A stretch of DNA of 64,000 bases, taken from positions 62,001 to 126,000 of the forward strand of contig NZ_JARGDO010000006.1 in assembly GCF_029211185.1 (NCBI RefSeq), read 5' to 3'. This document shows, in pieces, positions 24,233 to 51,411 of the stretch. Each line of letters opens with the position of its first letter. Position 1 is the first letter of the stretch. Made by a program: the position numbers and the translations under genes. A model generated the notes under the pieces. The model worked only from the letters and a program-made list of their open reading frames with translations. It ran no database searches and was not told where the DNA came from. This DNA comes from Tessaracoccus caeni. GTDB lineage: Bacteria > Actinomycetota > Actinomycetes > Propionibacteriales > Propionibacteriaceae.

Positions 24233-24299
24233 CATAACGCTGCCTATATGGTGCGGCGTGTACCTCTTGCACACGGCGCGCCGGATAGCCAGCGTTATG
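24233..24299. repeat. long hairpin with nine-base loop, copy 1
   Basis: Arms 24233-24261 and 24271-24299 pair at 24 of 29 positions, starting CATAACGCTG. The loop is ACCTCTTGC, closed by TGT/ACA; on the minus strand the loop reads GCAAGAGGT. It lies between recF and dciA. Hairpins at 47528-47598 and 51349-51411 share the loop and its closing triplets. The inner stem (GGCTAT..GGCGCG..GTGT) also resembles the one at 51349. Confidence 0.8.
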
Positions 24300-24330
24300 C
24301 GCGCCATGTCACCGCGCGAGGAGGTGGGGG

Positions 24331-24861
24331 ATGACGGAGACGCCTGAGCACGACCCGACGGGGCTGGACCTGGCGTCCGAGATCGCACGCGCCACCGCGG
24401 AGTCGTCGCCGTTCCTGCCGCCGCCGACGAACGCGCCGCCCAAGCTGCCGAAGCGCAGGCCCCGGATCTTCGACGAGCAGCGCTCGGGCGCTCATCCCGA
24501 CGACCGAGACCCGCAACCCATCGGCAAGCTGTTCGAGTCAGTGGCCAAGAGGCGAGGCTGGCAGCGTCGCATCTCGCTGTCCACCGTGCTGCAGGACTGG
24601 GCGGGCCTCGTCGGCGAGGCGAATGCCGAACACTCGAAGCCCACCGACTTCGCCGACGGTGTGCTCACCATCCAGTGCGACTCCACCGCTTGGGCCACCG
24701 CCATGCGCTACAACGCGTCGCCGCTGGTGAAGCGCCTCAATGACAAGCTGGGCGAGCAGACGGTCCGTCGTGTGAGGATCCTGGCGCCCGCGCAGAAGAG
24801 CTGGAAGAAGGGTCCGCGCTCGGTGCGGGACGGCCGCGGGCCGCGCGACACCTACGGATAG
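24331..24861 (+). CDS. dciA: DciA/DUF721 family protein, replicative helicase operator
   Basis: A 176-residue DUF721 protein. The N-terminal ~55 residues are low in order (Pro-rich, PPPTNAPPKLPKRRPR). The DUF721 domain follows: LFESVAKRRGWQRRISLSTV, DWAGLVGEANAEHSKP, and DGVLTIQCDSTAWATAMRYNA. The C-terminus is basic. DciA is the ancestral loader or operator of the DnaB helicase in bacteria without DnaC/DnaI, and in actinobacteria it lies between recF and gyrB. Here gyrB does not follow. A large hairpin separates it from recF, so it may also have its own promoter. Confidence 0.9.
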   Translation: MTETPEHDPTGLDLASEIARATAESSPFLPPPTNAPPKLPKRRPRIFDEQRSGAHPDDRDPQPIGKLFESVAKRRGWQRRISLSTVLQDWAGLVGEANAEHSKPTDFADGVLTIQCDSTAWATAMRYNASPLVKRLNDKLGEQTVRRVRILAPAQKSWKKGPRSVRDGRGPRDTYG

Positions 24862-25033
24862 CACCTCTCGCCCTGAGCGAAGACGGGCCCTACATACTCG
24901 TCAAGATATGGGTGGCGTAGGTCGCCCGATCTGGCGCGCCGCAGCGCGAACATGATCATTCAGCGACCTCCTGGACTGCTCCGATCTTTTGGACCCGCTA
25001 CCTTTCCGCGCGGATCTGTGTTGAAATGGTCGG

Positions 25034-26281
25034 GTGCGCCGAGGCCCTGCGGGCGTAGCCCCCCTGATACGTAAACTTCTCGCCGTGGCGACGGTTGCAG
25101 CCGTCAGCACGGCGGTTGGGGTGCTCACTTGGCCCGACGACGACTCCGATCTCGTGGCCGTGCCCGCGCCTCCGTCGGAGAGCCCGTCGCCGAAGCCCGA
25201 GCCCAGCATGGATGCCGGCATCATCGCCGCCCTCACGCACGACAACTTCGAGTACAGCTCGCTCCTGCCGGTCGGCCGGGGCGCCAATCAGGTGCGAGTG
25301 GGCCTGCCGACGGCGCCTGAGGTCAACGATGAGGACACCAACAAGCTGAACAAGCCGTCCACCATCGCCACCGCGTCGGTGGCCCCTGTGGATGCGACCA
25401 AGGGAACCTTGCTGTCGATGCCGCTCAACGGCAGGCAGACGTCGCAGTTCGGCATGCGCTTCCACCCGGTGCTGAAGGTATGGAAGCTGCACACCGGCCT
25501 CGACTTCGCGGCCCCTTGCGGCACGGCCGTCGGCGCCGTCGCTCCTGGCGAGGTGATCAGGACGGGATGGGCCGGCGGCAACGGCATCCAGGTGAAGGTC
25601 GATCACGGCAAGATCGCCGATCATCACGTGATCACCACCTACAACCACCTCTCCAGCGTCGGCGTGTCCGTCGGCCAGAAGGTGGACACGCATCAAGGCC
25701 TCGGCGAGGTGGGTTCCACCGGATACTCCACCGGCTGCCATCTGCACCTCGAGCTCATCGTCGACGGCGACTTCACCGACCCGCTGCCCTGGTTGAACGG
25801 TGATCCGGTGGTGGTGGACATCAACGCCATCACTCGTCGGACGCCGTCGCCGCGCCCGTCCGCGTCCCCCAGCTCGTCGGCGTCCCCCTCGCCCAGCCCG
25901 TCGCCGTCGCGCTCTGCATCCGCGTCACCGTCGCCTTCGCTGTCTCCCTCGGCTTCGGCCTCGAAGACGCCCAAGCCGTCGAAGACCCCCTCGCCGAAGC
26001 CCGGCACTCCGGAACCCTCGGGGACGCCGTCCCAGACGGTGTCTCCGTCGCCCAGCCCCGAGCCGTCGGAGTCCCCGAGCCCGTCGTCCGAGCCGAGCGA
26101 GAGCCCATCGGTCAGCGCGTCTGAGACGCCCTCCTCGGAGCCGACGGCCACCGAGACCGAGCCGGAGACGGAGTCCCCGAGCGAGTCCGAGCCCGAGAAC
26201 GATGAGCCGGCGCCGACCCTGTCGTCCGACGAGACCCTGAGCGTCCCCGAACCGACCGGCTCGTCCGAGGAAACCGACTAG
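25034..26281 (+). CDS. M23-family metallopeptidase with long Ser/Pro-rich tail
   Basis: A 415-residue protein from GTG 25034. A basic start and one hydrophobic segment (LLAVATVAAVSTAVGVL) suggest export or anchoring. The LytM/M23 domain spans about residues 130-255 and keeps the zinc ligands: His in FGMRFHPVL, Asp in HTGLDFAAP, and the HLHLE motif (about residue 238). It should cut peptidoglycan cross-links or regulate amidases. Residues ~270-415 are almost only Ser, Pro, Glu, Thr and Ala (SPSPSPSPSRSASASPSPS-like), probably an extended linker through the wall. No LPXTG motif is seen at the end. It occupies the position where gyrB would be expected. Confidence 0.88.
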   Translation: MRRGPAGVAPLIRKLLAVATVAAVSTAVGVLTWPDDDSDLVAVPAPPSESPSPKPEPSMDAGIIAALTHDNFEYSSLLPVGRGANQVRVGLPTAPEVNDEDTNKLNKPSTIATASVAPVDATKGTLLSMPLNGRQTSQFGMRFHPVLKVWKLHTGLDFAAPCGTAVGAVAPGEVIRTGWAGGNGIQVKVDHGKIADHHVITTYNHLSSVGVSVGQKVDTHQGLGEVGSTGYSTGCHLHLELIVDGDFTDPLPWLNGDPVVVDINAITRRTPSPRPSASPSSSASPSPSPSPSRSASASPSPSLSPSASASKTPKPSKTPSPKPGTPEPSGTPSQTVSPSPSPEPSESPSPSSEPSESPSVSASETPSSEPTATETEPETESPSESEPENDEPAPTLSSDETLSVPEPTGSSEETD

Positions 26282-26326
26282 TACTCTCTTCGTATCCGCC
26301 TGTCCCTGATCTCTTAGGTTGGATGC

Positions 26327-27880
26327 ATGTCGCAGCAGTTGATCCTGAGCCGTAGACGAGGCTGGATGGCCACCTGGGGCCGGATGGGTGCGGTGGCGGT
26401 GGCCATCGTCGCCCAGCTGGGCCTATATGTGTGGATCGTCCTGGCGTTGGCCGACTCCTCGCCGTGGGTGTACGCCTTCAGCCTGCTGTTGAGCGTCGTC
26501 GCGGTGTTGTGGATCGTCGCGACGCCGATGCCGCCGGAGTACAAGCTGGCCTGGGTGATCCCGATCTTGCTGGTGCCCGTGCTCGGCGGGGCGTTCTACC
26601 TGCTGTACGGCGCGCGTCGCTTCCGCGGAAAGGACCGCCAGCGCTTGGCCATCGCTCAGGCCGAGGCCACCAAGGCGCTCACGGCCGGACCGGCCCTACA
26701 GATCGCTGGTGGTCGGCTTCCGACCGACATGGCCAGGCAGACCCGCTACCTGACGACGGCCGGGTCGTTCCCGGTGTGCGACGCCACCAAAATGGAGTAC
26801 TTCGCGCTCGGAGATCACGCCTTTCCGCGCATGCTCGCCGACATGGAGAAGGCCGAGCGTTACATCCTCTTCGAGTACTTCATCGTCGCCGCCGGCGAGA
26901 TGTGGGACCAGATGTTCGACGTCATGCGGCGCAAAGCCGCCCAGGGCGTCGACGTGCGGGTGCTCTACGACGACCTCGGCTCCCACTTCGTGCTGCCTCG
27001 CGATTTCCACAAGAAGCTGCACGAGGCCGGCATCAAGGTGCAGGCCGTCAACCCGCTGGGCGTTCGGCTGCGGCTGCGCTACAACAACCGCAACCACCGC
27101 AAGATCCTGGTGATCGACGGCGTCGTCTCCTATACGGGCGGCATCAACATCGCCGACGAGTACATCAATGCCATCGTGAAGTTCGGGCACTGGAAGGACA
27201 CGGTGGTCCGGTTGGAGGGCCCGGCGACGTGGAGCTTCGTCGCCATGTTCCTGAGCGTGTGGAGCTTCGTCGACGAGACGGCCGACTACACCGACTTTAT
27301 GCCCGTCGGCGACACCCGGCAGGACGGCGATTGGGGCGTCGTGCAGCCCTTCGACGACTCGCCGTTCGACAACATCCCGGTGGGCGAGGAGGCCTACCTG
27401 GGCATGATCAACCGGGCGCGGCAGTACGTCGACATCTTCACGCCGTACCTGATCATCGACGCGCGGATGTTGGAGGGTCTGAAGCACGCCGCGATGTCGG
27501 GGATCCGGGTGCGCATCGTCACCCCGCACATCCCGGACAAGAAGCTCGTCTTCGAGGTGACCCGGGCCTACTACCATCCGCTCGTCGAGGCGGGCGTCGA
27601 GATCTACGAGTACACGCCGGGCTTCATGCACGCCAAGCAGATCGTCGTCGACGGCCGCTCCGGCATCATCGGCACGATCAACTTCGACTACCGCAGCTTC
27701 TTCCTGCACCAGGAGTGCGCGGTGTGGCTGTACGAGTCGCCGGTGCTGAAGGACATGCAGGACGACTTCGACGCCACCATCGCCGTGTCGCAGCGCGTCA
27801 CGCTGGAGGACTGCCTGGCGGTCCCGTGGTGGCGACACCTGGCGCGCGCGATCCTCAGCACCTTCGCGCCCTTGATGTAG
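26327..27880 (+). CDS. cls: cardiolipin synthase
   Basis: A 517-residue bacterial Cls of the two-HKD type. Two N-terminal membrane helices (about residues 20-42 and 48-66) and a third (76-95) are followed by two phospholipase D domains. The first HKD motif is HRKILVIDG (His257), the second HAKQIVVDG in the last quarter, each followed by a GG/GT and Asn as expected. It joins two phosphatidylglycerol molecules, or PG with PE, to form cardiolipin at the membrane. It stands alone; the sigma factor gene starts 84 bases downstream. Confidence 0.93.
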   Translation: MSQQLILSRRRGWMATWGRMGAVAVAIVAQLGLYVWIVLALADSSPWVYAFSLLLSVVAVLWIVATPMPPEYKLAWVIPILLVPVLGGAFYLLYGARRFRGKDRQRLAIAQAEATKALTAGPALQIAGGRLPTDMARQTRYLTTAGSFPVCDATKMEYFALGDHAFPRMLADMEKAERYILFEYFIVAAGEMWDQMFDVMRRKAAQGVDVRVLYDDLGSHFVLPRDFHKKLHEAGIKVQAVNPLGVRLRLRYNNRNHRKILVIDGVVSYTGGINIADEYINAIVKFGHWKDTVVRLEGPATWSFVAMFLSVWSFVDETADYTDFMPVGDTRQDGDWGVVQPFDDSPFDNIPVGEEAYLGMINRARQYVDIFTPYLIIDARMLEGLKHAAMSGIRVRIVTPHIPDKKLVFEVTRAYYHPLVEAGVEIYEYTPGFMHAKQIVVDGRSGIIGTINFDYRSFFLHQECAVWLYESPVLKDMQDDFDATIAVSQRVTLEDCLAVPWWRHLARAILSTFAPLM

Positions 27881-27964
27881 CGCGCATCGAGACCGGCGAG
27901 ACCGATCCGGTTCCGCTGGCAACCCGTCGGCGGGGTCGTGGCGTGTACCGGTCAGGAGGTGACC

Positions 27965-28489
27965 ATGAGCGAACAGCAGGCCGAGCGGGCGCGAGGCTTC
28001 GACGCCTTCCTGAGGGCGCGTGCCGGACGGCTCTGGCGGACGGCCTGGCTGCTCACCGGCGACTCGCAGCACGCCGAGGATCTGGTGCAGACCGCGCTCA
28101 TCAAGACCTACGGGCGCTATGGCGCCATGAACGACGACGATCACTACGAGGCCTACGTCCGTAAGACCATTCACCGGACCTTCGTGTCGTGGTGGCGCAA
28201 GCGGAGCTGGCGGTCGGAGGCGCCGTCCCCCGACACGATGAAGGAGACCGAGGCGACGTCGGCGAGGATCGGGAGTCCCGACCTCAGCCTCGACGTGGCC
28301 CGCGCCCTCGCCGAGCTGCCGCGAATGCAGCGCAGCGTCATGGTGCTGAGGTTCTACGAGGACCGTTCGGTGGCTGAGGTGGCCGAGCTGCTCGGCATCT
28401 CCCAGGGCACCGTCAAGTCGTACTCCCACCGCGCCTGTGAGTCGCTGCGCGGATCGCTGCATCTCGTTCCCCAGGAGGTGGAATCATGA
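27965..28489 (+). CDS. ECF sigma factor, SigE family
   Basis: A 174-residue sigma factor. The ATG at 27965 has an excellent ribosome site (AGGAGGTGACC). Region 2 reads FDAFLRARAGRLWRTAWLLTGDSQHAEDLVQTALIKTY, and region 4 has MQRSVMVLRFYEDRSVAEVAELLGISQGTVKSYSHRA. This is the 'SigE family' (SIG-like group common in actinomycetes), which directs RNA polymerase to a small regulon. The next gene overlaps it by four bases and encodes a membrane protein, the usual arrangement of a sigma factor with a regulatory partner, although no classic zinc anti-sigma motif is visible there. Confidence 0.92.
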   Translation: MSEQQAERARGFDAFLRARAGRLWRTAWLLTGDSQHAEDLVQTALIKTYGRYGAMNDDDHYEAYVRKTIHRTFVSWWRKRSWRSEAPSPDTMKETEATSARIGSPDLSLDVARALAELPRMQRSVMVLRFYEDRSVAEVAELLGISQGTVKSYSHRACESLRGSLHLVPQEVES

Positions 28490-29580
28490 CCGAGAAGGAC
28501 ATCTCGACGATCCTCGAGCACGCCGTCCCCGTGGAACCAGGCCTGACTGGTCTCGGCGATCGGGTTCGCGACGGCCACCGCCGGCGTCGGATGGTGCGCG
28601 CCGGGGTGGTGGTCGTCGGCGCGCTCGCGCTGGGCGTTCCCGTGGCGCTGAACCTGGTTCCGGGACTGGGCGGCCCCACCGTGTTCGCCACGCCGTCGGC
28701 CACCGACGTTCCCTCGGGCGTGCCGTCGGCCGATGTCGATCTCTCCACCGACCGTGTCGTCAGCGAGGTGTGTGAGCAGTACTCCGGCACCGTGAGCGGG
28801 TTCCCCGACGCGAGGATCCCGGACGGCGTGACGAGAATCTACCTCTGCGGGCGTCCGGACGACTTCCTCATCGATGGTCCCCTGATCTACGGAGCGCCGG
28901 AGCCGATCGTCGGCGACCTCTCCGGGCTGGTGGACCTGGTCAACGATCAGCCGGCTCGCGAGCCGATGGATCCCCTCCCCTCCGGATGCCCGTCGGGGGG
29001 CGAGACCGTGTCCAATCTTCCGTACACGGCGGTCTTCGAGTACCCGGACGGGACGCGGCTCGCGGCCAGTTCGACCAGCGGACCGTGCAGCGAGCTGATC
29101 ACCGACCGCAAAACTCTCACCAGAGGCGACGGAGGGGCCTTCTTCCTCGCCGCGCTCGAGGCACTCCACGTGCAGCGTCAGGACGGCGACTACGGCTACG
29201 TCGGCGACGATGATCTGTGCATGGAGGCGTCGTCGATCGTGTCGCGCTCGATGTACGACGTGGTGCGCGGCGCCGCCTGCACGACCGAGTCCGACGACTC
29301 CTCCCCGGCCCACCGCCGGGTGGTGCTGCCGGACGCCTTGGTGGCGCGGATCCGCGACGAGGCCGTGGCCACCGCGGACCTTCCTCCGAACGACGGGCGT
29401 GGCTTCCCGCTGGCGACGCAGACCCTGGTGCTGCAGAGCGCGCACGGGGATCCGATGACGATGTATCGCTGGCCCGACGGCAGCTTCTCCTACTGGGAGG
29501 ACGATTCCCTGCTGGTCTGGACGCCGTCCGCTCAGCTGGCAGCCGAGATCGCCGACGTGTTCGAGGGCCTGGGAGGCTGA
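28486..29580 (+). CDS. membrane-anchored extracytoplasmic protein coupled to SigE
   Basis: A 364-residue protein of unknown function. About 35 cytoplasmic residues with an arginine cluster (RDGHRRRRMVRAG) precede one hydrophobic segment (VVVVGALALGVPVALNLV, about 40-58); the remaining ~300 residues should be outside. The outer part has pairs of cysteines (VCEQYSG, YLCGRPDD, SGCPSGG, GPCSE, DLCMEAS, AACTTE), suggesting disulfides. The ATGA overlap with the sigma gene implies balanced production. Similar proteins accompany SigE-family factors and may act as anti-sigma or sensor, which is inference. Confidence 0.75.
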   Translation: MTEKDISTILEHAVPVEPGLTGLGDRVRDGHRRRRMVRAGVVVVGALALGVPVALNLVPGLGGPTVFATPSATDVPSGVPSADVDLSTDRVVSEVCEQYSGTVSGFPDARIPDGVTRIYLCGRPDDFLIDGPLIYGAPEPIVGDLSGLVDLVNDQPAREPMDPLPSGCPSGGETVSNLPYTAVFEYPDGTRLAASSTSGPCSELITDRKTLTRGDGGAFFLAALEALHVQRQDGDYGYVGDDDLCMEASSIVSRSMYDVVRGAACTTESDDSSPAHRRVVLPDALVARIRDEAVATADLPPNDGRGFPLATQTLVLQSAHGDPMTMYRWPDGSFSYWEDDSLLVWTPSAQLAAEIADVFEGLGG

Positions 29581-29594
29581 CGAACGGACCGGCC

Positions 29595-30260
29595 TCAGAG
29601 GTGCAGTCGTTTGGCCAGCTCGTGGCGCATCTCTGCGCCGCGCGTGGCCAGGAGGAGCGCCAAGGAGAGCACGCTGAGGACGGCGCAGATCGTCGACGGG
29701 AGGGCCACAGTCACCCAGTCGAGGAGCAGGAAGACGATGGGAACCAGGCCGAGCAGCACCGCCAGGCCGGTGTAGAGGACGTGCTCGCCCACCTCGATGC
29801 GCATCGCCCACACCGCGATCTGCAAGGCGACGATGGAGGAGGCGCAGACGATCGGCACCGCAAAGGTCACCGACCAGCCGTGCCACCCCGTCAGGTAGTC
29901 CCAGTACAGGCACACCAGGCCGACGAGCACCACCAGGTACACCGTCGACTTCGCGATGTTGCGGCGTTTGCGGATCGCCATCAACGCCACCAGCCACATG
30001 GAGCTGACGCCCAGCCAGACCGATCGGGCCACCCCGATCCCGCCGAGCCCACGAGCGAACAGCAGCTGCGCCACGAAGGATCCGACGATCACCACGATCG
30101 ACGCGATGAACAGCAGCCTCAGCACACGGCGTCGCGAGAACCGGAGGGGCACCGTCGGGAGCGGACTGGGCGATGGCGTGCCCGAGACCTCGACGCCGCA
30201 CAGCGGACATCGCTTCCAGTCGCCTTCGATGTCGACGAGGCAATCCGTGCAGCGCCTCAT
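29595..30260 (-). CDS. DUF6320-like zinc-ribbon membrane protein
   Basis: A 221-residue protein. An N-terminal zinc ribbon (CTDCLVDIEGDWKRCPLCG: two CxxC pairs) is followed by a Pro/Ser linker and six to seven hydrophobic segments from about residue 48 onward. From memory this is the DUF6320 type, whose genes often travel with an alpha/beta hydrolase and a condensation-domain acyltransferase. Exactly those two genes lie upstream with overlapping starts and stops. The function is unknown; a membrane partner in an acyl-transfer system is a reasonable guess. Confidence 0.7.
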   Translation of the reverse strand: MRRCTDCLVDIEGDWKRCPLCGVEVSGTPSPSPLPTVPLRFSRRRVLRLLFIASIVVIVGSFVAQLLFARGLGGIGVARSVWLGVSSMWLVALMAIRKRRNIAKSTVYLVVLVGLVCLYWDYLTGWHGWSVTFAVPIVCASSIVALQIAVWAMRIEVGEHVLYTGLAVLLGLVPIVFLLLDWVTVALPSTICAVLSVLSLALLLATRGAEMRHELAKRLHL

Positions 30261-31678
30261 GGCGTGGCCCCCGCGAGTTCCTCCTCGGTCACCCGCGTGG
30301 CGGCGACCGACACCTCGACCCCCTGGGTGGTGAGGATCCGCGCGAACTCCTTGATGTGGGCGGTGTCCGTGAACGGCGACGTGAAACTGATGGTGAGCAG
30401 GCCGGCGTGGGAGATGGCGCAGAACTGCGGGCGCACGGCCGAGACGTGGAACAGCATCCGGCCCACGTGGGACTCGGCCGGCTCGGGCAGGCGCACGACG
30501 CCGAGGTTGGAGATCGCGACGGTCAGTCCCCGGTTGGTGCCCCAGTTCACCGTCGCGAGGATGGCGTCCTTGAACGGCCGCGGCAGGATGCGCAGCGCCG
30601 GCATCCTCTCGAGTCGGATGAAACGCCGCAGCTTCTTCTCCAGCGCGTCAGGGGTGACCTTTTCGCGGAGCTGGGTCTCCAGTTCGCGGCAGATGGAGCC
30701 GAAGTCGTCGGCGCCCGTGCCGTAGGTGTGTTCCACCCGAACGGTGGCGAAGAAGTTGCGCGCCGAGGTCGACGGGAAGAACTGGCGCAGGTTCACCGGC
30801 ACGGATGCCGTGAATGTGCGCCGGTCGCCGAGATCGCCCGAGGAACGGCGCACGGACTCGAAGAACACCGCGAGCAAATACATCGTCAGCGAGACGCCCT
30901 CTGCCTTGGCCAGGGCGAGCACCTCCTTCGCCGGCAGCGTGAACTCGACCATCCGCGGCCGGTTGTCCGGCGTTCGTGTACCGGTCACCCGGAACACCTT
31001 GCGCGGGCTCTGGTGGTACTCGTGGAGAGGGACGTCGTCGTCCGCTGTCGAGGTGTTTCCTGGGTCGATCCGGAGCGCCGGGGCGACGGCCGCGCCGCTG
31101 AAGACGGAATGCTCGGCGCTGGTGTCGGCATGGCGACGGCTGAGTTCTCGTCGGCGCCGCCGGAAGTAGTGGCCGAAGCTGTCGTCGGTCAGGCCGTGGG
31201 TGGGCTTGGCATCGGCGTCCGTGCGGGCGGGCGTCTGAGGGGTGGTCGACGTCGAACCGTCGAGTCGCCGGGTGACGTATTCCTCGACCAGATCGGTGAG
31301 GAACCACAGCGCTCCCGTTCCGTCTGACAAGGCATGAAACACCTCGAGCACGATCCGCCGCCGGTGGTACACGACCCGAAACAGCAGCTCCACCCGATCC
31401 GGATGGTAGATCGGGGCGCTGGTGTACTGGTCCTCGGGGCCGACGACGGGGCGTAGGTCGCTGTCCTGCAGGTAGTGCCAGAACACGCCGCGGCGCAGCA
31501 CCGCGTGATAGAGCGGGTAACGCGCGTAGGTGGTGTCGAGGGCGTCTTGAAGGACGATCGGGTCGACGTCGTGATCGAGCTCGGCGGTCAGCCGGAACAC
31601 CTTGGGGTCGGCGTCGGTGCGCGCGGCCAGGAAGATGTTCGACGCGTTGTCGAGTCGCACCCAGGCGCGGCGGGTCAC
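30257..31678 (-). CDS. condensation-domain-like acyltransferase
   Basis: A 473-residue protein of the chloramphenicol-acetyltransferase-like/condensation superfamily. The active-site HxxxDG variant is seen in FHALSDGTGALWFL (about residue 114), and the second half has a conserved-looking MTIS/SNLG region (VAISNLGVVRLPE) and an SFTSPFTDT end. Relatives are annotated as alcohol acetyltransferases or PapA-like enzymes that move acyl groups onto hydroxyls. The GTG start overlaps the hydrolase stop and its own stop overlaps the DUF6320 gene, giving a tightly coupled three-gene operon. Substrate unknown. Confidence 0.75.
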   Translation of the reverse strand: MTRRAWVRLDNASNIFLAARTDADPKVFRLTAELDHDVDPIVLQDALDTTYARYPLYHAVLRRGVFWHYLQDSDLRPVVGPEDQYTSAPIYHPDRVELLFRVVYHRRRIVLEVFHALSDGTGALWFLTDLVEEYVTRRLDGSTSTTPQTPARTDADAKPTHGLTDDSFGHYFRRRRRELSRRHADTSAEHSVFSGAAVAPALRIDPGNTSTADDDVPLHEYHQSPRKVFRVTGTRTPDNRPRMVEFTLPAKEVLALAKAEGVSLTMYLLAVFFESVRRSSGDLGDRRTFTASVPVNLRQFFPSTSARNFFATVRVEHTYGTGADDFGSICRELETQLREKVTPDALEKKLRRFIRLERMPALRILPRPFKDAILATVNWGTNRGLTVAISNLGVVRLPEPAESHVGRMLFHVSAVRPQFCAISHAGLLTISFTSPFTDTAHIKEFARILTTQGVEVSVAATRVTEEELAGATP

Positions 31679-32622: not shown

Positions 32623-32751
32623 CGGCCGGCCGACGTGTCGAGGGACGGGTTCATTTCCCCAGCCTAAAGGCTTGCTGGCTCTGATAGTCGGATGACGTGG
32701 TTGATGACGAGAATCCGTGGCGCCCCCCACTACGGGGCTCATCTCAAACCA

Positions 32752-32778
32752 GGAAAATCGGCCAATGGCCGATTTTCC
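32752..32778. promoter_or_regulatory. perfect inverted repeat in divergent promoter region
   Basis: GGAAAATCGGCC and GGCCGATTTTCC are perfect 12-base arms around AAT. A further half-copy (AATCGGCCA) occurs at about 32795. It lies between divergent genes, so it is more likely an operator than a terminator. A related stretch (CGATTTTCGGCCAT) occurs at about 62682. Confidence 0.45.
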
Positions 32779-32852
32779 GGTGTCTATTGCCGAGAATCGG
32801 CCACTGTTTCGGGTAGCGGTCCTGAGCCGATGGCTGCCGATAGTGTTTCGTC

Positions 32853-35203: not shown

Positions 35204-35220
35204 GACACATCCTTGGAATA

Positions 35221-35237: not shown

Positions 35238-35262
35238 CGAGTATGGTGTGGAAAGCAGAATA

Positions 35263-43020: not shown

Positions 43021-43095
43021 CCGTCTGCATCGCTCTCCCGGGAGCCGGAGTGCAATGATGGATGCTGTCTGTCTATCGGAGGAGAACCGCGAGCG

Positions 43096-43884: not shown

Positions 43885-43982
43885 TCGCCACCTACCTGCG
43901 GAACCTCTTAGCTGATCGCGAACACTCGGGTATGGGCGCCCGGGATGGTCGGTAGCCTGGCGGCAACCGTCAAAGGAGAACC

Positions 43983-44801
43983 ATGGATCCCTCCCGCATC
44001 GTGCCCGACGATCAGATCTGGGCCGCTATCAAGGCCGAGTGCGCTGCGGCTGCGGCGGAAGAGCCCTTGTTGGCAGGATTCCTGCACGCCACGGTGCTGG
44101 CCCAGCCCGACATCGAGGAGTCGCTGAGTTACATCCTGGCCAGCAAGCTCGACAACTCGACGCTGCCGGCGCTCGGCCTTCGCGACATCTTCTACGACGT
44201 GCTCAAAGACGAGGAGTGCATCCAGCGCTCCATCATCGCCGACCTGCAGGCCGTCGTCAGCCGCGACCCCGCCTGCCCCGGGTACGCCAACCCGCTGCTG
44301 TATTTCAAAGGGTTCCAGTCGATCCAGGCCTACCGCGTCGCTCACCACTACTGGACGCAGGGCCGCAAGCCGCTCGCCTGGTATCTGCAGAGCCGCATCT
44401 CGGAGGTGTTCGCCGTCGACATCCATCCGGGGGCGCGGATCGGCAAGGGCATCATGTTCGACCACGCCACCAGCGTCGTCGTCGGTGAGACGGCAGTGGT
44501 GGAGGACGACTTCTCGATGCTGCACGAGGTGACCCTCGGTGGCTCCGGCAAGGAGGGCGGCGACCGTCACCCCAAGATCGGCCGTGGCGTGATGATCGGC
44601 GCCGGCGCGAAGGTGCTGGGCAACATCAAGATCGGGGAAGGCGCCAAGATCGGAGCCGGCTCCGTCGTGCTGAAGGACGTCGCCCCGCACACCACCGTCG
44701 CCGGGGTGCCGGCCAAGGTGGTCAACGTGCCGGCCTCGTCGCTGCCCGCCTTCGACATGATCCAGACCCTCGACGAGGATCCTTTCGACCCCTGCATCTA
44801 G
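43983..44801 (+). CDS. cysE: serine O-acetyltransferase
   Basis: A 272-residue enzyme of the long, E. coli-like CysE type with an N-terminal helical domain (about 1-140) and a C-terminal left-handed beta helix. Key motifs are ADLQAVVSRDPAC, DIHPGARIGKGIMFDHATSVVVGETA with the catalytic His, HEVTLGGSGK, and hexapeptide repeats to GVPAKVV. It makes O-acetylserine from serine and acetyl-CoA, the first step of cysteine synthesis. The start follows AAAGGAGAACC. The C-terminal tail could interact with cysteine synthase. A palindromic-repeat copy begins nine bases after the stop. Confidence 0.95.
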   Translation: MDPSRIVPDDQIWAAIKAECAAAAAEEPLLAGFLHATVLAQPDIEESLSYILASKLDNSTLPALGLRDIFYDVLKDEECIQRSIIADLQAVVSRDPACPGYANPLLYFKGFQSIQAYRVAHHYWTQGRKPLAWYLQSRISEVFAVDIHPGARIGKGIMFDHATSVVVGETAVVEDDFSMLHEVTLGGSGKEGGDRHPKIGRGVMIGAGAKVLGNIKIGEGAKIGAGSVVLKDVAPHTTVAGVPAKVVNVPASSLPAFDMIQTLDEDPFDPCI

Positions 44802-44809
44802 GCCCCGTA

Positions 44810-44857
44810 CGCTCTTCGAGGTGCGAGGCCGCCTGCGGCCGAGCCTCGAGGAGAGCG
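44810..44857 (+). repeat. dispersed palindromic repeat between cysE and an extensin-like gene
   Basis: A full copy of the GGCCGCCTGCGGCC-centred form: GCTCTTCGAGGTGCG to GAGCCTCGAGGAGAGC. It lies in the 67 bases between two convergent gene ends, where it could form a two-way terminator hairpin. Confidence 0.85.
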
Positions 44858-44868
44858 TCGATGTCGAA

Positions 44869-45675
44869 CTAGGCGGACGCCGTGGCGCGGAGGAACTCGC
44901 GCCAGCCGTCGGCCTTCGCCAAGGGGCGGGAGATGCCGTTGGACTTCTGCACCGAGCGCACCGCGTCTTTGGTCTGGTCGTCGTAGCTGTCGGTGAGGTC
45001 GATGTCCTTGCCGAAGACGTAACGGCAGGCGTTCTGCACCATCTGCACCTGGACGCGCGAACCGGGGTCGAAGGCAGAGCGATCCCAACCCGATACCCCG
45101 TTGTCGACGTGGATGTGGTTGCGGTGTGCCTCGTTGTAGCGGCAGGTCAGCGTGTAGGCGAAGTGCTCGTGCAGCGACGCTGCGAGCCGCCAGTAGGAGC
45201 GCATCCGACCGCCGTCCTCGCCCCACTTGTCCTGTCGGCAGGAGACCTTGCCACCCTCGTGCTCCAGTTCCGCGAAGTCGAACGCGCGCCCGGCCTGGTG
45301 CCAGGAGGAGCACTTGTCGACGTAGGCTCCGTAGCTCCACACCTTGGTCAGTGCGCCGAGTCCGCTGAGTTTCACCCAGTCCTCCGCCCACTCCTCGAGC
45401 AACTCGATGAAGCGCGGATCGGCCTTATAGGTGGCCTTGGTGCGATCGATCTCGTAGCCGAGCCTTGCGCCGCCCAGCGTCTTGAAGCTCTCGAGCGACT
45501 CCGGCGTGCGGCACTCTCCTTGGCCTTCGACGGAGAAGTCTTCGTCGTTCGGGTTGAGCAGTCCCTGGCCCTCGTCGAGAAGCGGAATGCCGTCGTCGAG
45601 GATCCCGCTCCGGAGAACCCCGTAGCCTGCCAGCGCTGTCACGCCGGCCAGTGCCAAGAATCCTCGTCGCCTCAT
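44869..45675 (-). CDS. extensin-like secreted protein with peptidoglycan-binding-like C-terminus
   Basis: A 268-residue protein. The N-terminus (MRRRGFLALAGVTALAGYG) resembles a twin-arginine signal. The middle (about 55-205) matches the extensin-like C-terminal domain family, related to D,D-peptidases of the M15 fold: SSWHQAGRAFDFAEL and NEAHRNHIHVDNG give the metal-ligand pattern His-x6-Asp and HxH. The last ~60 residues (QNACRYVFGKDIDLTDSYDDQTKDAVRSVQ split) resemble a peptidoglycan-binding type 1 repeat. It probably trims or binds the cell wall. It converges on cysE with a repeat between. Confidence 0.75.
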   Translation of the reverse strand: MRRRGFLALAGVTALAGYGVLRSGILDDGIPLLDEGQGLLNPNDEDFSVEGQGECRTPESLESFKTLGGARLGYEIDRTKATYKADPRFIELLEEWAEDWVKLSGLGALTKVWSYGAYVDKCSSWHQAGRAFDFAELEHEGGKVSCRQDKWGEDGGRMRSYWRLAASLHEHFAYTLTCRYNEAHRNHIHVDNGVSGWDRSAFDPGSRVQVQMVQNACRYVFGKDIDLTDSYDDQTKDAVRSVQKSNGISRPLAKADGWREFLRATASA

Positions 45676-45722
45676 ACCCGGAAGCTATCTGCAGCAGGAG
45701 CGCCGGAGCATCCGCCCTGGGG

Positions 45723-47393
45723 CTAGATGTGGCCGGCGAGGGCCTCGCGGAGGACGCTGAGGGGGACGGAGCCGAGCTCGAGGGCGTGACGGTGGAAGGC
45801 GGACAGGTCGAAGGCCGGGCCTTGGCGCCGTTCCGCGTCGCGGCGCAAGCCCTCCCAGATGCGCTGGCCCACCTTGTACGACGGGGCCTCGCCCGGCCAG
45901 CCAAGGTAGCGGTCGAGTTCGAACTGGCGGAAACCGTCGGACAGCGTCGAGTTGCTGGTGAGGAAATCTCTCGCGTTGTCGGCGTTCCAGGTGCCCCCCA
46001 GTGGATGCTCTTTGCCGAGGTGCAGCCCGATGTCGAGCACTACCCGGGCGGCGCGGAGGCGCTGGCTGTCGAGCAGGCCCATCCGATCTCCCGGGTCGTC
46101 GAGGAAGCCCAGCTCCTGCATGAGGCGCTCGGCGTAGAGGGCCCAGCCCTCGCCGTGACCGCTGACCCAGCAGGCGAGTCGCCGCCACATGTTGAGCGTG
46201 CGCGACTGGTGAATGGTGGTGCTGAGCTGCAGGTGATGCCCGGGCGCGCCCTCGTGGTAGACGGTGGTGCGCACCCGCCAGGTGCCGAAGGTGTCAACGT
46301 CGGGCGGCACCGACCACCAGAGCCGTCCCGGGCGGGAGAAGTCGTCGCTGGGGCTGTGGTAGTAGACCCCGCCGGAGTGGGTGGGGAACACGACGCACTC
46401 GAGGGTGCGGGCGGGCTCGGGGATGTCGATGTAGCTGCTCAGCGCCTGGACGGCCTCGTCGGCCGTGGCCTGGATCCACTGCTGGAGAGCGTCCGTGCCC
46501 AGCAGTTGACGGGCGGGATCCTCGTCGAGCAGTTCCATGGCCTCTTCGACGCCCGTGCCGGGACCGAAGAGCTCGCCGGCCAGCGCCTGCTGTTCGTCGA
46601 CGATGCGCGCGAGATCCTGGATGCCCCACTCGTAGGTCTCGTCAAGGTCGATGGTGTCGCCGAGGAAGCGCCGCGAGAGCAGTTGGTACCGCTCTCGTCC
46701 GACGGCGTCCTCGACGGGAGCCTTGCTCGCGTGACCACGCAGCGCCTTCGAGAGCCGGGCGTAAGCGGCTCGGGCGCCGCCGGCGGCCGTCTCCAGATCG
46801 GCGACGAGAGCCGGGGGCACCGGGCCGTCGTCGGTGTAGGCCGACTCGATCAGCGCCTGCCAGAAGGAGTTGTCGCTGGCCATCTCTGCGGCCTCGGCGA
46901 TGCCGAGTTCCACCTGACGGCGCGCCGGCGCCGGCCCCGTCCGAAACGCCTCGCCGAGGCTGGCCACGTACCCGTCGATGGCCTCGCCGACCCCGCTCAT
47001 CCGAGTGGCGATGCCCTCCCAATCTTCGACGGTGGAGGTGGGCATGAGCTCGAACACGTCGCGGATCGACTGCAGAGGCGAGGCCACCACGTTCAGGTCT
47101 GCCAGATGCTCGCCCGCCTCGACGAGCTCGATCTCCAGACCCAGGCGCTCGCGCATGGCGAGCTGGGTGATCCGGTCGACCTCGTCGACGATGGGGGCGG
47201 CCTCGACGGCGGCGAGCGTTCGGCGTGCTAACTCCGTACGTGCGGCGTGTCCGTCGGGCGAGAAATCGTCGAGCCGATGATCATGACCGGGGATGCCCAT
47301 GTCCGTTGCCTGGATAGGGCTGAGCCTCGCCAGCTCCTCGGTATAGGAGTCGGCGATGGCGTCGAGCGCGGTGGCAGGACGGGCGTCGGTCAT
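45723..47393 (-). CDS. DUF885 family protein (putative metallopeptidase)
   Basis: A 556-residue, largely helical protein of the DUF885 family. The metal-binding motif is YHEGAPGHHLQLS (HExxxxHH form) in the second half, followed by HGEGWALYAERLMQELG supplying a further Glu, and conserved QLRALRVVLDIGLH-like text (here RLRAARVVLDIGLH). The fold is related to M32 carboxypeptidases, but the substrates are unknown. No signal peptide is seen. It starts at ATG 47393 with a long hairpin 135 bases upstream. Confidence 0.9.
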   Translation of the reverse strand: MTDARPATALDAIADSYTEELARLSPIQATDMGIPGHDHRLDDFSPDGHAARTELARRTLAAVEAAPIVDEVDRITQLAMRERLGLEIELVEAGEHLADLNVVASPLQSIRDVFELMPTSTVEDWEGIATRMSGVGEAIDGYVASLGEAFRTGPAPARRQVELGIAEAAEMASDNSFWQALIESAYTDDGPVPPALVADLETAAGGARAAYARLSKALRGHASKAPVEDAVGRERYQLLSRRFLGDTIDLDETYEWGIQDLARIVDEQQALAGELFGPGTGVEEAMELLDEDPARQLLGTDALQQWIQATADEAVQALSSYIDIPEPARTLECVVFPTHSGGVYYHSPSDDFSRPGRLWWSVPPDVDTFGTWRVRTTVYHEGAPGHHLQLSTTIHQSRTLNMWRRLACWVSGHGEGWALYAERLMQELGFLDDPGDRMGLLDSQRLRAARVVLDIGLHLGKEHPLGGTWNADNARDFLTSNSTLSDGFRQFELDRYLGWPGEAPSYKVGQRIWEGLRRDAERRQGPAFDLSAFHRHALELGSVPLSVLREALAGHI

Positions 47394-47527
47394 GGCTTTG
47401 ACCCTATACCGACCCTCTGACGGTGAGCCCGACCAGCCTGTGGGCGGACTACCAAGTGCGAGGATGACCTTCCGCCATCACGCCCGTTCTACCGACGCCG
47501 GTTCGGCGCACTACGTCTGGGTGCAGC

Positions 47528-47598
47528 GAATAAAAGTGGCTGATCGGGGGTGATCTGTGCAATACGTACAGATCCCCCCCGCTCAGCCATCTTTATTC
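47528..47598. repeat. long hairpin with nine-base loop, copy 2
   Basis: Arms 47528-47558 and 47568-47598 pair at 27 of 31 positions, beginning GAATAAA. The loop is GCAATACGT, closed by TGT/ACA. The same loop pattern (G-C/A-AA-T/G-A-C/G-GT) is found in the hairpins at 24233-24299 and 51349-51411. It lies between the DUF885 gene and the SMR pair, both leftward. Confidence 0.85.
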
Positions 47599-47622
47599 AG
47601 ACGCATCGGGTATTCAGACGGG

Positions 47623-47988
47623 TCAGGCGTCGGTGGCCTTGGTGGTCTTCCCGTCGAGTTGCTTCAACCCGACGACGCAGGCCACGATCCCTGCCAGGAA
47701 CAGGGCCTTCAGCCAAGACATCGACTCCGCGCCGATCGCGACGGAGTAGCTGACGGTGAGCACGGTGCCGACGCTGGTCCACACGGCGTAGGCGGTGCCC
47801 GTCGGGATGACGCGCATGGCCTGGCCGAGGCCGACCACCGACGCGATAGTGGCAACCAGGAACACCACGGTGGGCACCAGATGTGTGAAGCCCTCGCTGG
47901 CGGACAGGGCATTCGCCCAGACGGCCTCCAGCACCGCACTGACCAGCAGGATGGCCCAAGCGGCCCCGGGGGTGATCGAGCGCGTCAT
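47623..47988 (-). CDS. SMR-family transporter, second subunit (probable guanidinium exporter)
   Basis: A 121-residue small multidrug resistance protein with four helices. The binding Glu lies in the first helix (LLVSAVLEAVWANAL, about residue 21). IPTGTAYAVWTSVGTVLTV is the SugE/Gdx-type helix 3 signature, with GIVACVVGLK in helix 4. The ATG overlaps the stop of the upstream SMR gene, so the two probably form a heterodimer, as in other paired SMR exporters. The upstream guanidine-III riboswitch marks them as guanidinium exporters rather than general drug pumps. A short charged C-terminal tail (QLDGKTTKATDA) follows. Confidence 0.9.
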   Translation of the reverse strand: MTRSITPGAAWAILLVSAVLEAVWANALSASEGFTHLVPTVVFLVATIASVVGLGQAMRVIPTGTAYAVWTSVGTVLTVSYSVAIGAESMSWLKALFLAGIVACVVGLKQLDGKTTKATDA

Positions 47989-48299
47989 GCCAGCACCTTC
48001 AATCCGACGACGCAGGCGACGATCCCCACCAGCAGCAGGATCTTGGCCAGCGAGGCGGGCTCGACGCCGCGGATCATCGCCCAGGTGACAGTGAGCGACG
48101 CGCCGGTGGCGGTCCAGACGGCGTAGGCGGTGCCCGTCGGCAGGCTCTCGAGCGCAAGACCCAGCCCGCCGAGGCTGAGGATGGAGGCCACCACGAAGAC
48201 GATCGAGGGGCGGAGGCGTGTGAGGCCGTTGGAGGCGGCGAGCGCGGAGGCCCACACGGCCTCGAGCACGCCGGAGGCGATGAGGATGATCCAGGCCAC
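47985..48299 (-). CDS. SMR-family transporter, first subunit (probable guanidinium exporter)
   Basis: A 104-residue four-helix SMR protein from GTG 48299 after AAAGGAACC. The helix 1 Glu is in LIASGVLEAVWASAL (about residue 13), with LPTGTAYAVWTATGASLTV in helix 3. It is about 50% identical by eye to its partner, so the pair arose by duplication. The guanidine-III riboswitch 31 bases upstream should expose the ribosome site when guanidine is bound. Export would protect against this toxic nitrogen compound. Confidence 0.92.
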   Translation of the reverse strand: MAWIILIASGVLEAVWASALAASNGLTRLRPSIVFVVASILSLGGLGLALESLPTGTAYAVWTATGASLTVTWAMIRGVEPASLAKILLLVGIVACVVGLKVLA

Positions 48300-48329
48300 G
48301 ATTGGTTCCTTTCAGTCGTTTGCACGTCT

Positions 48330-48385
48330 GCCAGTCTTTTCGTGACCGGGTACTGGTCTCGATTCTCGATCGAGCCCTCGTCCGG
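48330..48385 (-). promoter_or_regulatory. guanidine-III riboswitch (ykkC-III)
   Basis: On the minus strand the leader begins CCGGACGAGG and later reads GTACCCGGTCACGAAAAGAC followed by TGGC. This matches the conserved pseudoknot core of guanidine-III (CCGGACGAGG ... GUACCCGGUCA.GA.AAGAC) as I recall it from Thermobifida fusca. The variable hairpin between the halves is GCTCGATC-GAGAATCGAG. It lies 31 bases before the SMR start, with AAAGGAACC between, fitting translational control. A perfect palindrome (GGCGCCATGGCGCC, 48386-48399) precedes it. Confidence 0.88.
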
Positions 48386-48500
48386 GGCGCCATGGCGCCG
48401 GAGCCGATTCTAGCAAGCTCGTAGGGGACGGAGAAGCTGGCTCGAATGGCCCCTGACAAGGCAAGATCGGGCTTAAGGCACCCCGACGTCTGGTAGTAGA

Positions 48501-48519
48501 TAAGGCGAGACTAGCCTCA
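48501..48519. promoter_or_regulatory. DtxR/IdeR-type iron box before feoA
   Basis: TAAGGCGAGACTAGCCTCA agrees with the 19-base DtxR/IdeR consensus (TTAGGTTAGGCTAACCTAA) at about 13 positions, including the outer AGG and CCT. It ends five bases before the feoA ATG. Iron-loaded repressor here would shut off ferrous iron uptake. Confidence 0.6.
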
Positions 48520-48524
48520 GTTCC

Positions 48525-48824
48525 ATGACCGCGTTCATGGACAAGCTGACCACGCGTCGCTGCGCCACGGCACAGTCGCTCGAGGGTGTCGGCCTCGACT
48601 GCCGGACCCTGGATTCGCTGCCCGTCGGACACGCGTCCACCATCCTCGGCTTCGACGGCGACGACGCCGTCAGCCGACGGCTGTTCAACCTGGGCTTCGC
48701 GCCAGGCCTGGAGGTCGCGCTGCTGCGACGCGCCCCGTTGCGCGACCCGCTGATGTTCCGAGTCGACGGCTGCGAGATCGTGCTGCGCCGTCGCGAGGCC
48801 CGTCGGATCCTGGTGGCGTCATGA
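48525..48824 (+). CDS. feoA: ferrous iron transport protein FeoA
   Basis: A 99-residue SH3-like FeoA: TLDSLPVGHASTILGFDGDD, VSRRLFNLGFAPGLEVALLRRAPLRDPLMFRVDGCEIVLRRREARRI (split) matches the family core. The ~25 extra N-terminal residues are not conserved, and an internal ATG at 48537 is an alternative start. It supports the FeoB transporter. It overlaps feoB by four bases. An iron box lies directly upstream. Confidence 0.93.
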   Translation: MTAFMDKLTTRRCATAQSLEGVGLDCRTLDSLPVGHASTILGFDGDDAVSRRLFNLGFAPGLEVALLRRAPLRDPLMFRVDGCEIVLRRREARRILVAS

Positions 48825-50767
48825 CTCACGAACACCACCACGGCGGGGGAGGCGCCACCGTCAAAGAAGGGCTGCCGCGGATCGCCATCGTCGGTAGCCC
48901 CAACGCCGGCAAGACCACCCTGTTCAACGGCTTGACCGGCCTGCGCGCCAAGACGGGCAACTATCCGGGCGTCACGGTCTCGCGCTACGAGGGCGAACTC
49001 GAAACCCCGGCCGGACCGGTGGCCGTCGAGGACCTGCCCGGCGCCTACTCACTCGACCCCATCAGCCCCGACGAGCAGATCGTCGCCGACATGCTCGAGC
49101 AGGCCCAGGACCACTGCGACCCCATCGAGGCGCTCATCGTCGTGATCGACGCCACCAACCTGCGTCGCGGCCTCGGCCTGCTTGCCCAGGTGCAGCAAGC
49201 CGGCCTGCCGACCATGGTGGTGCTGAGCTTCGTCGACGAGCTGGTGCGGCGGGGTGGCAACGTCGACCACCAGGCCCTCGGCAGGGCCATCGGGGCCTGC
49301 GTGCTGCCCATCGTCGCCGGTGAGAAGCGAGGAGTGAAGGCACTGGCTGACGCCGTCGCCGAGCGCGCTTCCTGGCCGTCCCCGCCCGTCGCTCCGCCGC
49401 ATGAGCCCGACGAGGTGACCGCCTGGGCGTCGTCGGTGCTGGTCTCCGCGAACTATCGCCCCGCCGATCCGGACTCACGCACCGGAAAGATCGACCGCAT
49501 CCTGCTGCATCCCCTGTGGGGCACCGTCATCTTCTTCGCCGCGATGCTGCTGTTCTTCCAGATCATCTTCACCGTGGCGGCGCCGCTTCAGGGCTGGATC
49601 GAGGAGCTCTTCGGCTGGCTGAGCGAGGCCTCGCGCGCCGCCATCCCGATCGGCTGGCTGAGCTCGTTCGTCGCCGATGCGCTGATCGGCGGAGTGGGCG
49701 GCGTGCTGGTGTTCCTGCCGCAGATCGGGCTGCTGTTCGTGATGATCTCGCTGCTCGAGGGAACCGGGTACCTGTCGCGCGCCGCCTATCTGATGGACCG
49801 CGTGATGGCCTCCGCCGGCCTCGAGGGCCGGGCCTTCGTCGCGTTGCTGTCGTCGGTAGCCTGCGCCATCCCCGGCATCATGGCGACGCGTACCCTGCCG
49901 TCGGCCAGGGACCGCCTGGCGACGATGATGGCCGCCCCGCTGATGACCTGCTCCGCCCGACTGCCCGTCTACGTCCTGCTGATCGGCATGTTGGTGCCCA
50001 ACGACGTGCGCGTGGGCCCGCTGGGTTTGCAGGGCCTGATCATGTTCGGCCTGTACCTGCTGGGAGCGGCCTCCGCGATGGCCGCCGCGTGGGTGGTGAA
50101 GACGTTCATCGGGCGCAAGGCCATGTCGCTGCCGTTCTATCTGGAGATGCCGAGCTACCGGATGCCGCAGCTGCGCACCGTCGTCATCGCCGTGTGGGAC
50201 GCCTGCAAGGCCTTCCTGAAGAAGGTCACCTCGATCATCATGCTCACCACCATCATCCTGTGGGGGCTGCTCAACCTGCCGCTGCGCTCCGACGCCGAGC
50301 TGACGCAGGCCGGGGTGGATCCCACCGACGAAGTGGCTGTGCAGACCTACGTGATCGACAACTCCGCGGCCGCCGCCGTGGGCCGCGCGGTGTCGCCGAT
50401 CTTCGAGCCGCTCGGCTTCGACTGGCGGGTCAACGTCGGCGTGATGTCGTCGCTGGCCGCCCGCGAGGTGTTCGTCTCGACGATGGGTCAGATCGCCTCC
50501 GCCACCGATCCCGAGGATCCGGCAGAAGCGTTGGCGACGATGACTCACGAGTCGGGTCCGCACCAGGGCGAGCCGGTGTTCACGCCGCCGACGATGATCG
50601 CTCTGCTGGTGTTCTTCGTCTATGCGATGCAGTGCATGGCGACGCTGGGGGCCATGCGGCGCGAGACCGGTGGCTGGAAGTGGCCGGCGATCGCCTTCGG
50701 CTACATGAGCGTGCTGGCGTGGGTGATGGCCTTTGCGGCGCGGTCGGTGGCTAGCATCTGGCTATGA
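48821..50767 (+). CDS. feoB: ferrous iron transporter FeoB
   Basis: A 648-residue FeoB. After a His-rich start (THEHHHGGGG) comes the G domain: G1 GSPNAGKTTLFN (about residue 26), G2 region TGNYPGVTVSRYEG, and G3 VEDLPGAYSLDP. G4 is not a clean NxxD (VLSFVDE), which is unusual. The membrane part has two Gate motifs, including SSVACAIPGIMATRTL with the conserved Cys, and APLMTCSARLPVYVLLIG. It moves Fe(II) inward using nucleotide hydrolysis. The stop overlaps the next gene, a NifU-like protein, forming feoA-feoB-nifU-like. Confidence 0.94.
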   Translation: MTHEHHHGGGGATVKEGLPRIAIVGSPNAGKTTLFNGLTGLRAKTGNYPGVTVSRYEGELETPAGPVAVEDLPGAYSLDPISPDEQIVADMLEQAQDHCDPIEALIVVIDATNLRRGLGLLAQVQQAGLPTMVVLSFVDELVRRGGNVDHQALGRAIGACVLPIVAGEKRGVKALADAVAERASWPSPPVAPPHEPDEVTAWASSVLVSANYRPADPDSRTGKIDRILLHPLWGTVIFFAAMLLFFQIIFTVAAPLQGWIEELFGWLSEASRAAIPIGWLSSFVADALIGGVGGVLVFLPQIGLLFVMISLLEGTGYLSRAAYLMDRVMASAGLEGRAFVALLSSVACAIPGIMATRTLPSARDRLATMMAAPLMTCSARLPVYVLLIGMLVPNDVRVGPLGLQGLIMFGLYLLGAASAMAAAWVVKTFIGRKAMSLPFYLEMPSYRMPQLRTVVIAVWDACKAFLKKVTSIIMLTTIILWGLLNLPLRSDAELTQAGVDPTDEVAVQTYVIDNSAAAAVGRAVSPIFEPLGFDWRVNVGVMSSLAAREVFVSTMGQIASATDPEDPAEALATMTHESGPHQGEPVFTPPTMIALLVFFVYAMQCMATLGAMRRETGGWKWPAIAFGYMSVLAWVMAFAARSVASIWL

Positions 50768-51333
50768 CGATCCGCCGGAGCAAGCGCATCCTTCATCCCG
50801 AGGCCGTCCCCGGCGAGCCGCAGGCGGTGCGCTGGGTGACCGACATCGACCTGCCCGTGGGGCGGGTGAGGCGGGCGCCCGGCACCGTCGGTCCGCTGCT
50901 GGAGTACGGCGTGGTGACGAAGATGCTCATCGAGCGCGGCGGGGTATGGATGTGGCTCGCCGATGGCCACGCCTGGATCGATCAGGGGCCGCGCATCCGC
51001 ACGGCGCTGGCCGCTGCCCTTGACGTGGACGACTGGGAGATCGAGGAGGGCTCGGCCGAGCTCCTCGGTCTGGTGGCCCAGCACGTGTTGGACGGTGAGC
51101 TGAAGGACTACGTCGCCTCGCACGGCGGGAGGATCACCGTCGCCGACGTCACCCCGGAGACCGTGGTGCTCGACTTCGGCGGCGCCTGCGAGGACTGCCC
51201 CGCGGCCGGCTCGACGCTGCACGAACGCATCGAAGCTGCCGTTGTGCGTCGCTACCCAGCCACCGTCACCACGTCGAGCCCGGTCCACGAGCAGAAGCGC
51301 GGCCTCTTGGGACTCTCCCGGCATCGTCGCTGA
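50764..51333 (+). CDS. NifU/NfuA-domain protein in the feo operon
   Basis: A 189-residue protein. The first ~90 residues resemble an Nfu N-terminal domain (VRWVTDIDLPVGRVRRAPGTVGPLLEYGVVTKMLIERGGVWMWL split). The C-terminal NifU domain has the Fe-S site GGACEDCPAAGSTLHERIEAAV (CxxCP, about residue 145). NfuA-type proteins carry and deliver Fe-S clusters. Overlap with feoB by four bases means incoming iron and cluster assembly or sensing are produced together, and it may replace FeoC. Confidence 0.85.
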   Translation: MTIRRSKRILHPEAVPGEPQAVRWVTDIDLPVGRVRRAPGTVGPLLEYGVVTKMLIERGGVWMWLADGHAWIDQGPRIRTALAAALDVDDWEIEEGSAELLGLVAQHVLDGELKDYVASHGGRITVADVTPETVVLDFGGACEDCPAAGSTLHERIEAAVVRRYPATVTTSSPVHEQKRGLLGLSRHRR

Positions 51334-51348
51334 TAGGGGTGCCGACCT

Positions 51349-51411
51349 TTCGGCTGGCTATATGGCGCGGCGTGTGAAATAGGTACAGGCCGCGCCATAT
51401 AGCCAGCCGAA
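51349..51411. repeat. long hairpin with nine-base loop, copy 3
   Basis: Arms 51349-51371 and 51389-51411 are a perfect 23-base inverted repeat starting TTCGGCTGGCTATATGG. Beyond one mismatch the stem continues for TGT/ACA and closes the loop GAAATAGGT (51376-51384). The loop matches those at 24233 and 47528. Here it lies between two convergent genes and could also terminate both. Confidence 0.88.

Follow-up and report, generated by a model that had tools for sequence, protein, structure and literature searches.

Three long hairpins in the window

The window analysed here, a 64,000-nucleotide (nt) stretch of the Tessaracoccus caeni genome (NZ_JARGDO010000006.1, positions 62,001 to 126,000), holds three long intergenic hairpins that belong to one family of ~55 dispersed hairpins with nearly the same tip. 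The hairpins and the genes beside them are the following, in window coordinates:

24233..24299, minus strand: hairpin copy 1, tip 24259-24273 (TGTGCAAGAGGTACA), between recF and dciA
47528..47598, plus strand: hairpin copy 2, tip 47556-47570 (TGTGCAATACGTACA), A subfamily, flanked by two minus-strand genes
51346..51414, plus strand: hairpin copy 3, tip 51373-51387 (TGTGAAATAGGTACA), between convergent genes
23026..24189, plus strand: recF, upstream of copy 1, with a RecF/RecN/SMC N-terminal domain (Pfam PF02463, E 1.9e-19)
24331..24861, plus strand: dciA (Pfam PF05258), downstream of copy 1 and separated from the recF stop by 141 bp
45723..47393, minus strand: DUF885 protein (Pfam PF05960), downstream neighbour of copy 2
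47623..47988, minus strand: Small multidrug resistance family protein (Pfam PF00893, matched on the longer open reading frame 47623-48459; the bounds given come from a crude gene caller), upstream neighbour of copy 2
50764..51333, plus strand: NifU-domain protein (Pfam PF01106), left neighbour of copy 3
51486..52550, minus strand: right neighbour of copy 3, with sub-threshold domain matches only

All three hairpins described in the first-pass annotation were recovered at the coordinates it gave, each with a 9-nt loop and with a fold more stable than any of 200 shuffles of its own sequence (z-scores of −5.4 for copy 1 on the minus strand, −10.1 for copy 2 and −10.9 for copy 3). Copy 1 has 29-nt arms (24233-24261 and 24271-24299) that are 83% complementary and 9 nt apart, copy 2 has 31-nt arms with 27 matches, and copy 3 has 27-nt arms (51349-51375 and 51385-51411) that are 96% complementary, again with 9 nt between them. 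When up to two mismatches were allowed, the tip 15-mer TGTGMAANANGTACA occurred in the window only at the three hairpins and was exact in all of them; the mean chance expectation was 0.39 sites, and three sites were reached in 1 of 100 shuffles. No match at or above the gathering score was obtained in the window for any of 4227 Rfam families. The name recF rests on the domain, the adjoining dciA and tblastn relatives, which include Microlunatus, Cutibacterium and Propioniciclava proteins at 52-59% identity.

A family of covarying hairpins in one genus

Across the 4.16 Mb genome the 15-mer was found at 34 sites (19 forward, 15 reverse), while the reversed control pattern gave none. A long in-register inverted repeat flanks the tip at 33 of these sites; the 34th (L027), which carries three extra left-arm bases, was left out of model R1, a covariance model built on the other 33. 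The tip pattern picked these 34 copies, so they share it by selection. A search of the genome with R1 regained them together with 21 more whole copies with changed tips, for a total of 55 (weakest E 0.02), of which 20 carry the nine-base tip GCAATACGT and nine carry GAAATAGGT. As an unbiased check we scanned 853.6 kb of the genome for long inverted repeats only; of the 35 that were found, 13 are members of the family, against 18 copies placed by the model in the same sequence, and the scan returned nothing in 480 kb of Markov sequence. One further copy is apparently split across the starts of contigs C44 and C4, whose first bases are mutual reverse complements: both (L093, L094) start within the same 35-nt hairpin core, as if the draft assembly were broken at a copy. 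Because the assembly seems to break at a copy, the family copy numbers are lower bounds. The tip lay on the G-rich strand in 9 of the 15 copies of C11 and C22 (hand count), with no evident replication-strand bias.

In the 33 aligned copies, 91.8% of the cells were paired against 68.7% after shuffling, both sides had changed in 25 of 30 pairs against 19.6, and the covariation score was 0.557 against 0.159, a value as high as that observed being reached in none of 500 shuffles. Shifting the partner by one to three columns left only 32-45% of the cells paired. Conservation by position peaks near the tip and is low at the outermost bases, and the outer ends differ between subfamilies (AATAAAAG, CATAACG, TTTATAG and CCTTCGG, with CTGCA in the relatives G018 and G030).

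The exact tip was present in 2 of 60 searched genomes, this one and a single site in one genome of the same order, and absent from all 35 same-genus genomes searched. Model R1 matched 7 of 39 genus genomes (E 0.001) and 6 of 198 genomes of the family (E 1e-4), every one of them of this genus. A second covariance model, built from the G018 and G030 copies, matched 11 of the 39 genus genomes and was multi-copy in G030 (25 places), G018 (16) and G021 (15). In the family it matched 10 of 198 genomes and 3 of 29 genera, the extra-genus matches that were inspected lacking the tip or not being long hairpins. Not counted as family were G015 and one of two G060 matches (12 and 14 of 28 positions paired), the matches of genus g8, which have an unrelated tip, and that of G163, which forms no long hairpin. 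Inspection of the places in G018 (16 of 16), G030 (25 of 25) and G021 (13 of 15) showed that each set has its own stems on a common tip. In agreement with the models, scans for any long hairpin gave four in 400 kb of G030, three of them with ATAT in the loop, and one in G028, which has no model matches; in G021, at a looser threshold, 16 were found, five of them with GTGC-ATAT-GCAC.

In each of the six pairs of species compared, the eight positions next to the tip were more alike (59-76%) than was the outer stem (34-59%), against 27% in a shuffled control; the comparison uses 52 of the 55 copies of this genome, with the A subfamily one base out of register. Certain stem positions also recur between species, as seen in the species-weighted half-site CTnnCTnnGnnGCnnnnTCTGTGCA, which was computed after correcting the register. 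Part of this conservation was chosen by the search, because most of the relatives' copies came from models. A signal of ~10 bp spacing among the conserved stem positions was too weak to use (permutation fraction 0.039). The tip-and-stem pattern had no match in viral contigs nor in named species genomes, a set that may hold no records close to this genome, and copy 2 had none in plasmids or phages. The family has multiplied in a species-specific way, with four copy-rich species in one genus: T. caeni itself (G000), G018, G021 and G030.

These results confirm what the first-pass annotation had observed and support part of its interpretation. It had allowed that the hairpins might be ordinary terminators alike by chance, which the further genome-wide copies and the covarying stems reject, and a covariance search of the kind it called for led to the 21 additional copies and to the related sets in genus mates. 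Its description of the stems as variable needs qualifying, given the stem positions that recur across species.

Placement at gene ends

Gene positions were taken from our own codon-usage gene caller, which is crude; its threshold was set slightly higher for the background than for the copies. None of the 55 copies lies within a gene, and 52 of them face at least one gene 3′ end, at a median distance of 17.5 nt to the nearest stop; in the window, copy 2 lies 26 nt beyond the stop of its upstream gene by these crude calls and copy 3 lies 13 nt after that of the NifU-domain gene. Among the 54 copies that could be classified by gene orientation (one is at a locus edge), 31 lie between convergent genes, an arrangement that accounts for 26% of the intergenic bases within ~854 kb of sequence (p about 1e-6). 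The bias is weaker in other species, whose classified copies have convergent, tandem and divergent counts of 5, 8 and 3 in G018, 10, 9 and 4 in G030 (two more at edges) and 9, 1 and 3 in G021. A T-rich tail (at least five T in an 8-nt window) was present at 36 of the 71 facing 3′ ends within 150 nt and at 3.9% of 17,216 background windows; the other 35 fell below the cut, and the 71 tails are not independent because they lie inside the element's own arms. The copies thus combine a G+C-rich stem with a T-rich tract at a gene end, as intrinsic terminators do, and a terminator role is likely because they sit at gene 3′ ends with such tails. A terminator scan with a loop limit of 8 over window positions 44000-55000 reported neither of the copies there. 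The neighbouring genes are mixed, no gene family being common to more than 4 of 107 neighbours among the 25 commonest of 137 families.

We compared two of the loci among relatives. Of 39 genus genomes, 36 yielded a dciA gene, and the comparison covered 30 recF-dciA loci, 29 of them from relatives. In the 25 relatives with both genes located, a possible dciA start overlaps or lies within 4 nt of the recF stop in 15, and the gap is 22-55 nt in four and more than 200 nt in six; it is 141 bp in this genome, where it contains copy 1. The long-hairpin scan of these loci found none in the 29 relatives. At the 3′ end of the NifU-domain gene, inspection of 12 relatives by eye showed strong hairpins in 3 of them, unrelated in sequence, and a fourth, G011, has a weak second-model match (E 6e-4), which fits a terminator role that is filled by different sequences in different species. 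Unrelated long hairpins were also seen downstream of recF in other Propionibacteriaceae records (L120 4764-4840 and 6431-6511; L117 4768-4833; L123 4692-4773); in the UBA6238 record, two of them are alike.

The placement, the T-rich tails and the NifU gene end are what would be expected if the copies were no more than intrinsic terminators: immobile long hairpins favoured by selection at gene ends, with gene conversion accounting for their likeness. We consider this unlikely: tip and stem families are common to unrelated gene ends, yet the tip is missing from every other genome searched in the genus; the two genes that copy 1 separates overlap or abut in most of the relatives compared; and a terminator does not need a conserved tip. 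It is less probable still that the copies are RNA elements, that is, mRNA 3′-end structures whose tip is read by an RNA-binding protein or RNase and which spread by selection. Nearly all of them follow a gene end, their RNA folds are strong and the tip is kept, as such elements would require, but the orientation of the tip is independent of the upstream gene (12 of 20 tandem copies agree with it and 8 disagree, by hand count), and the neighbours have no common function among the 25 families considered.

Other hairpins were noticed in this genome and its relatives. A second family, with tip CCACCGAAGTCGGTGG, has 17 exact and nine one-mismatch sites genome-wide against three for the reversed control (G000 C22:9967-10028, 11639-11688, 60062-60119, 77682-77743 and 82199-82252, plus other contigs), and here too the inner stem varies less than the outer one. 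A long hairpin around GCACCTCGAAGAGCGT at window 17810-17865, in a wide intergenic stretch, recurs at G000 C22:119054-119107. Paired palindromes AAAATCGGCCaATGGCCGATTTT, 12-14 bases apart around a GGTGTCT-like spacer, occur at G000 C11:454482-454557, C22:47252-47323 and C22:132747-132832, and two alike hairpins CTCCAGTGGGAGA...TCTCCCACTG lie between convergent genes at G000 C11:378806-378857 and C22:21302-21351. A further type, with arms CTGCGTATACG or similar, is common to this genome (L326, G000 C66:128684-128756; L349, G000 C6:71683-71755; G000 C22:264450-264514), G011 (L315, L322) and G007 (L317); both of the classified copies of this genome lie between divergent genes.

Possible exchange of arms and the probable origin of the family

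Within the 16 copies of the A subfamily, paired double changes occupy 30 cells, and wobbles and mismatches together 25; these figures count cells, not events. The double changes are of the transversion type in 22 of the 30 cells, and a transversion-type double change cannot go via a G-U wobble. Because paired double changes, mostly of this type, exceed wobbles, our results suggest that, in addition to any selection for pairing, both arms were rewritten at once through conversion or hairpin-templated copying. Moreover, 12 of the 55 copies were flagged as chimeric by a threshold rule with no computed null, each arm being nearer to another copy than to its own partner arm, with the change of ancestry at the tip. 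Copy 1 is among them, barely passing the rule (its own arms agree at 22 of 27 positions, and the best other copy at 24).

Such a switch at the tip, between arms of different subfamilies, is also what would be left if folded single strands were the substrate of a site-specific recombinase, as at integron attC sites, with arms swapped by crossover at the tip. We think this improbable, given that the copies are scattered singly amid mixed genes and form no cassette arrays; no search was aimed at integrases. A miniature inverted-repeat transposon dependent on a DDE transposase, with the arms as terminal repeats, would match the length and the inverted-repeat form, but it is very improbable and was disfavoured here, since the outer ends that the enzyme would have to recognise are among the least conserved positions and differ by subfamily, and no target duplication was noticed by eye in 34 copies (no search for DDE transposases was run).

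For the dispersed bacterial palindromes known best, the GTAG repetitive extragenic palindromic (REP) sequences and REPINs, the presumed movers are RAYT transposases, which recognise conserved ends. This family behaves as REPs do in being a multi-copy intergenic palindrome near gene 3′ ends. Membership among REPINs was rejected, the ends-conserved, centre-variable pattern being reversed here, and so was a Y1/RAYT mover, which went undetected in all 39 genus genomes. In the sections of PMC3733652 considered, REPs of the GTAG and CGTC super-families are described as multi-copy, species-specific intergenic palindromes that lie mostly between convergent or unidirectional genes, with conv-REPs no more than 20 bp from either 3′ end and CGTC REPs that have no known transposase; that placement is the closest published parallel to the gene-end placement seen here. 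These REPs measure 20-40 bp (PMC3733652), whereas our copies span ~67-74 bp, and inspection of 34 copies by eye showed no GTAG or CGTC tag at their ends. REPINs, as presented in the portion of PMC3116915 drawn on, are similarly hairpin-forming dispersed units with compensatory changes that spread within one genome, but they keep two ends, vary the middle and accompany RAYTs, whereas our copies keep the middle and vary the ends. Families of bacterial stem-loop sequences also concentrate at gene 3′ ends as repeated intergenic stem-loops, and some have been proposed as bidirectional terminators; none of those in the parts of PMC2267715 and PMC1590033 considered combines a conserved tip with stems that differ between sister species. 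Literature searches among openly licensed PubMed Central (PMC) papers turned up no account of this hairpin family.

Taken together, we regard it as probable that the hairpins are non-autonomous REP-like dispersed palindromes that multiply within a species and have been co-opted as intrinsic terminators. The unit would be ~67-74 bp long, with a long inverted repeat, a conserved tip, a few recurring stem positions and an otherwise interchangeable, covarying stem. The ancestral form of the tip was perhaps TGTGCATATGCACA, and in this genome it is mostly TGTGCAATACGTACA. Copies would multiply inside single species and persist just past stop codons, where, from their position and tails, they may act as one- or two-way intrinsic terminators or as mRNA 3′ ends. 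Some activity would mobilise them through the tip or the folded strand, and the complementarity of the arms may be kept partly through hairpin-templated copying. We file the family as REP-like in behaviour, and not as REP or REPIN, because PF01797 went undetected in the 39 genus genomes and because REPINs keep their ends and vary their middle. A more specific version, which is possible but doubtful, is a clade of palindromic mobile elements of sister species, recognised through their hairpin tip and independent of a Y1 transposase for movement, whose arms are exchanged at the tip and re-paired by hairpin-templated copying, so that ever new stems arise on one tip.

Several observations weigh against a REP-like mobile palindrome, besides the dependence of the tails and the rule behind the chimeras. 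Three of the 54 classified copies, and 7 of 39 in G030 and G018, are flanked by divergent genes, a setting in which a terminator would have little purpose. No Y1 transposase (PF01797, E 0.001) was detected in this genome or in any of the 39 genus genomes, while 5 of 14 control genomes were positive; no transposase occurs among the 25 commonest of the 137 neighbour families, and none was recognisable by eye in the open reading frame lists of L003 and L082, two loci with close copy pairs. Movement is inferred from distribution and context; with even the closest relatives at just ~74% identity, empty sites could not be resolved to the base. The structured recognition site that the first-pass annotation had anticipated agrees with the existence of one family, with a tip conserved best of all, and with a species-specific scatter like that of a mobile hairpin. 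No tip-reading protein was found, and there was no sign of a separate regulatory RNA or of a protein-bound cruciform.

A strong expansion within single species, without a detected RAYT and with the tip conserved, implies either a different mover or spread by way of replication, a question that the separate expansions in four species make testable. For the organism, the family suggests a route by which a genome acquires ready-made terminators.

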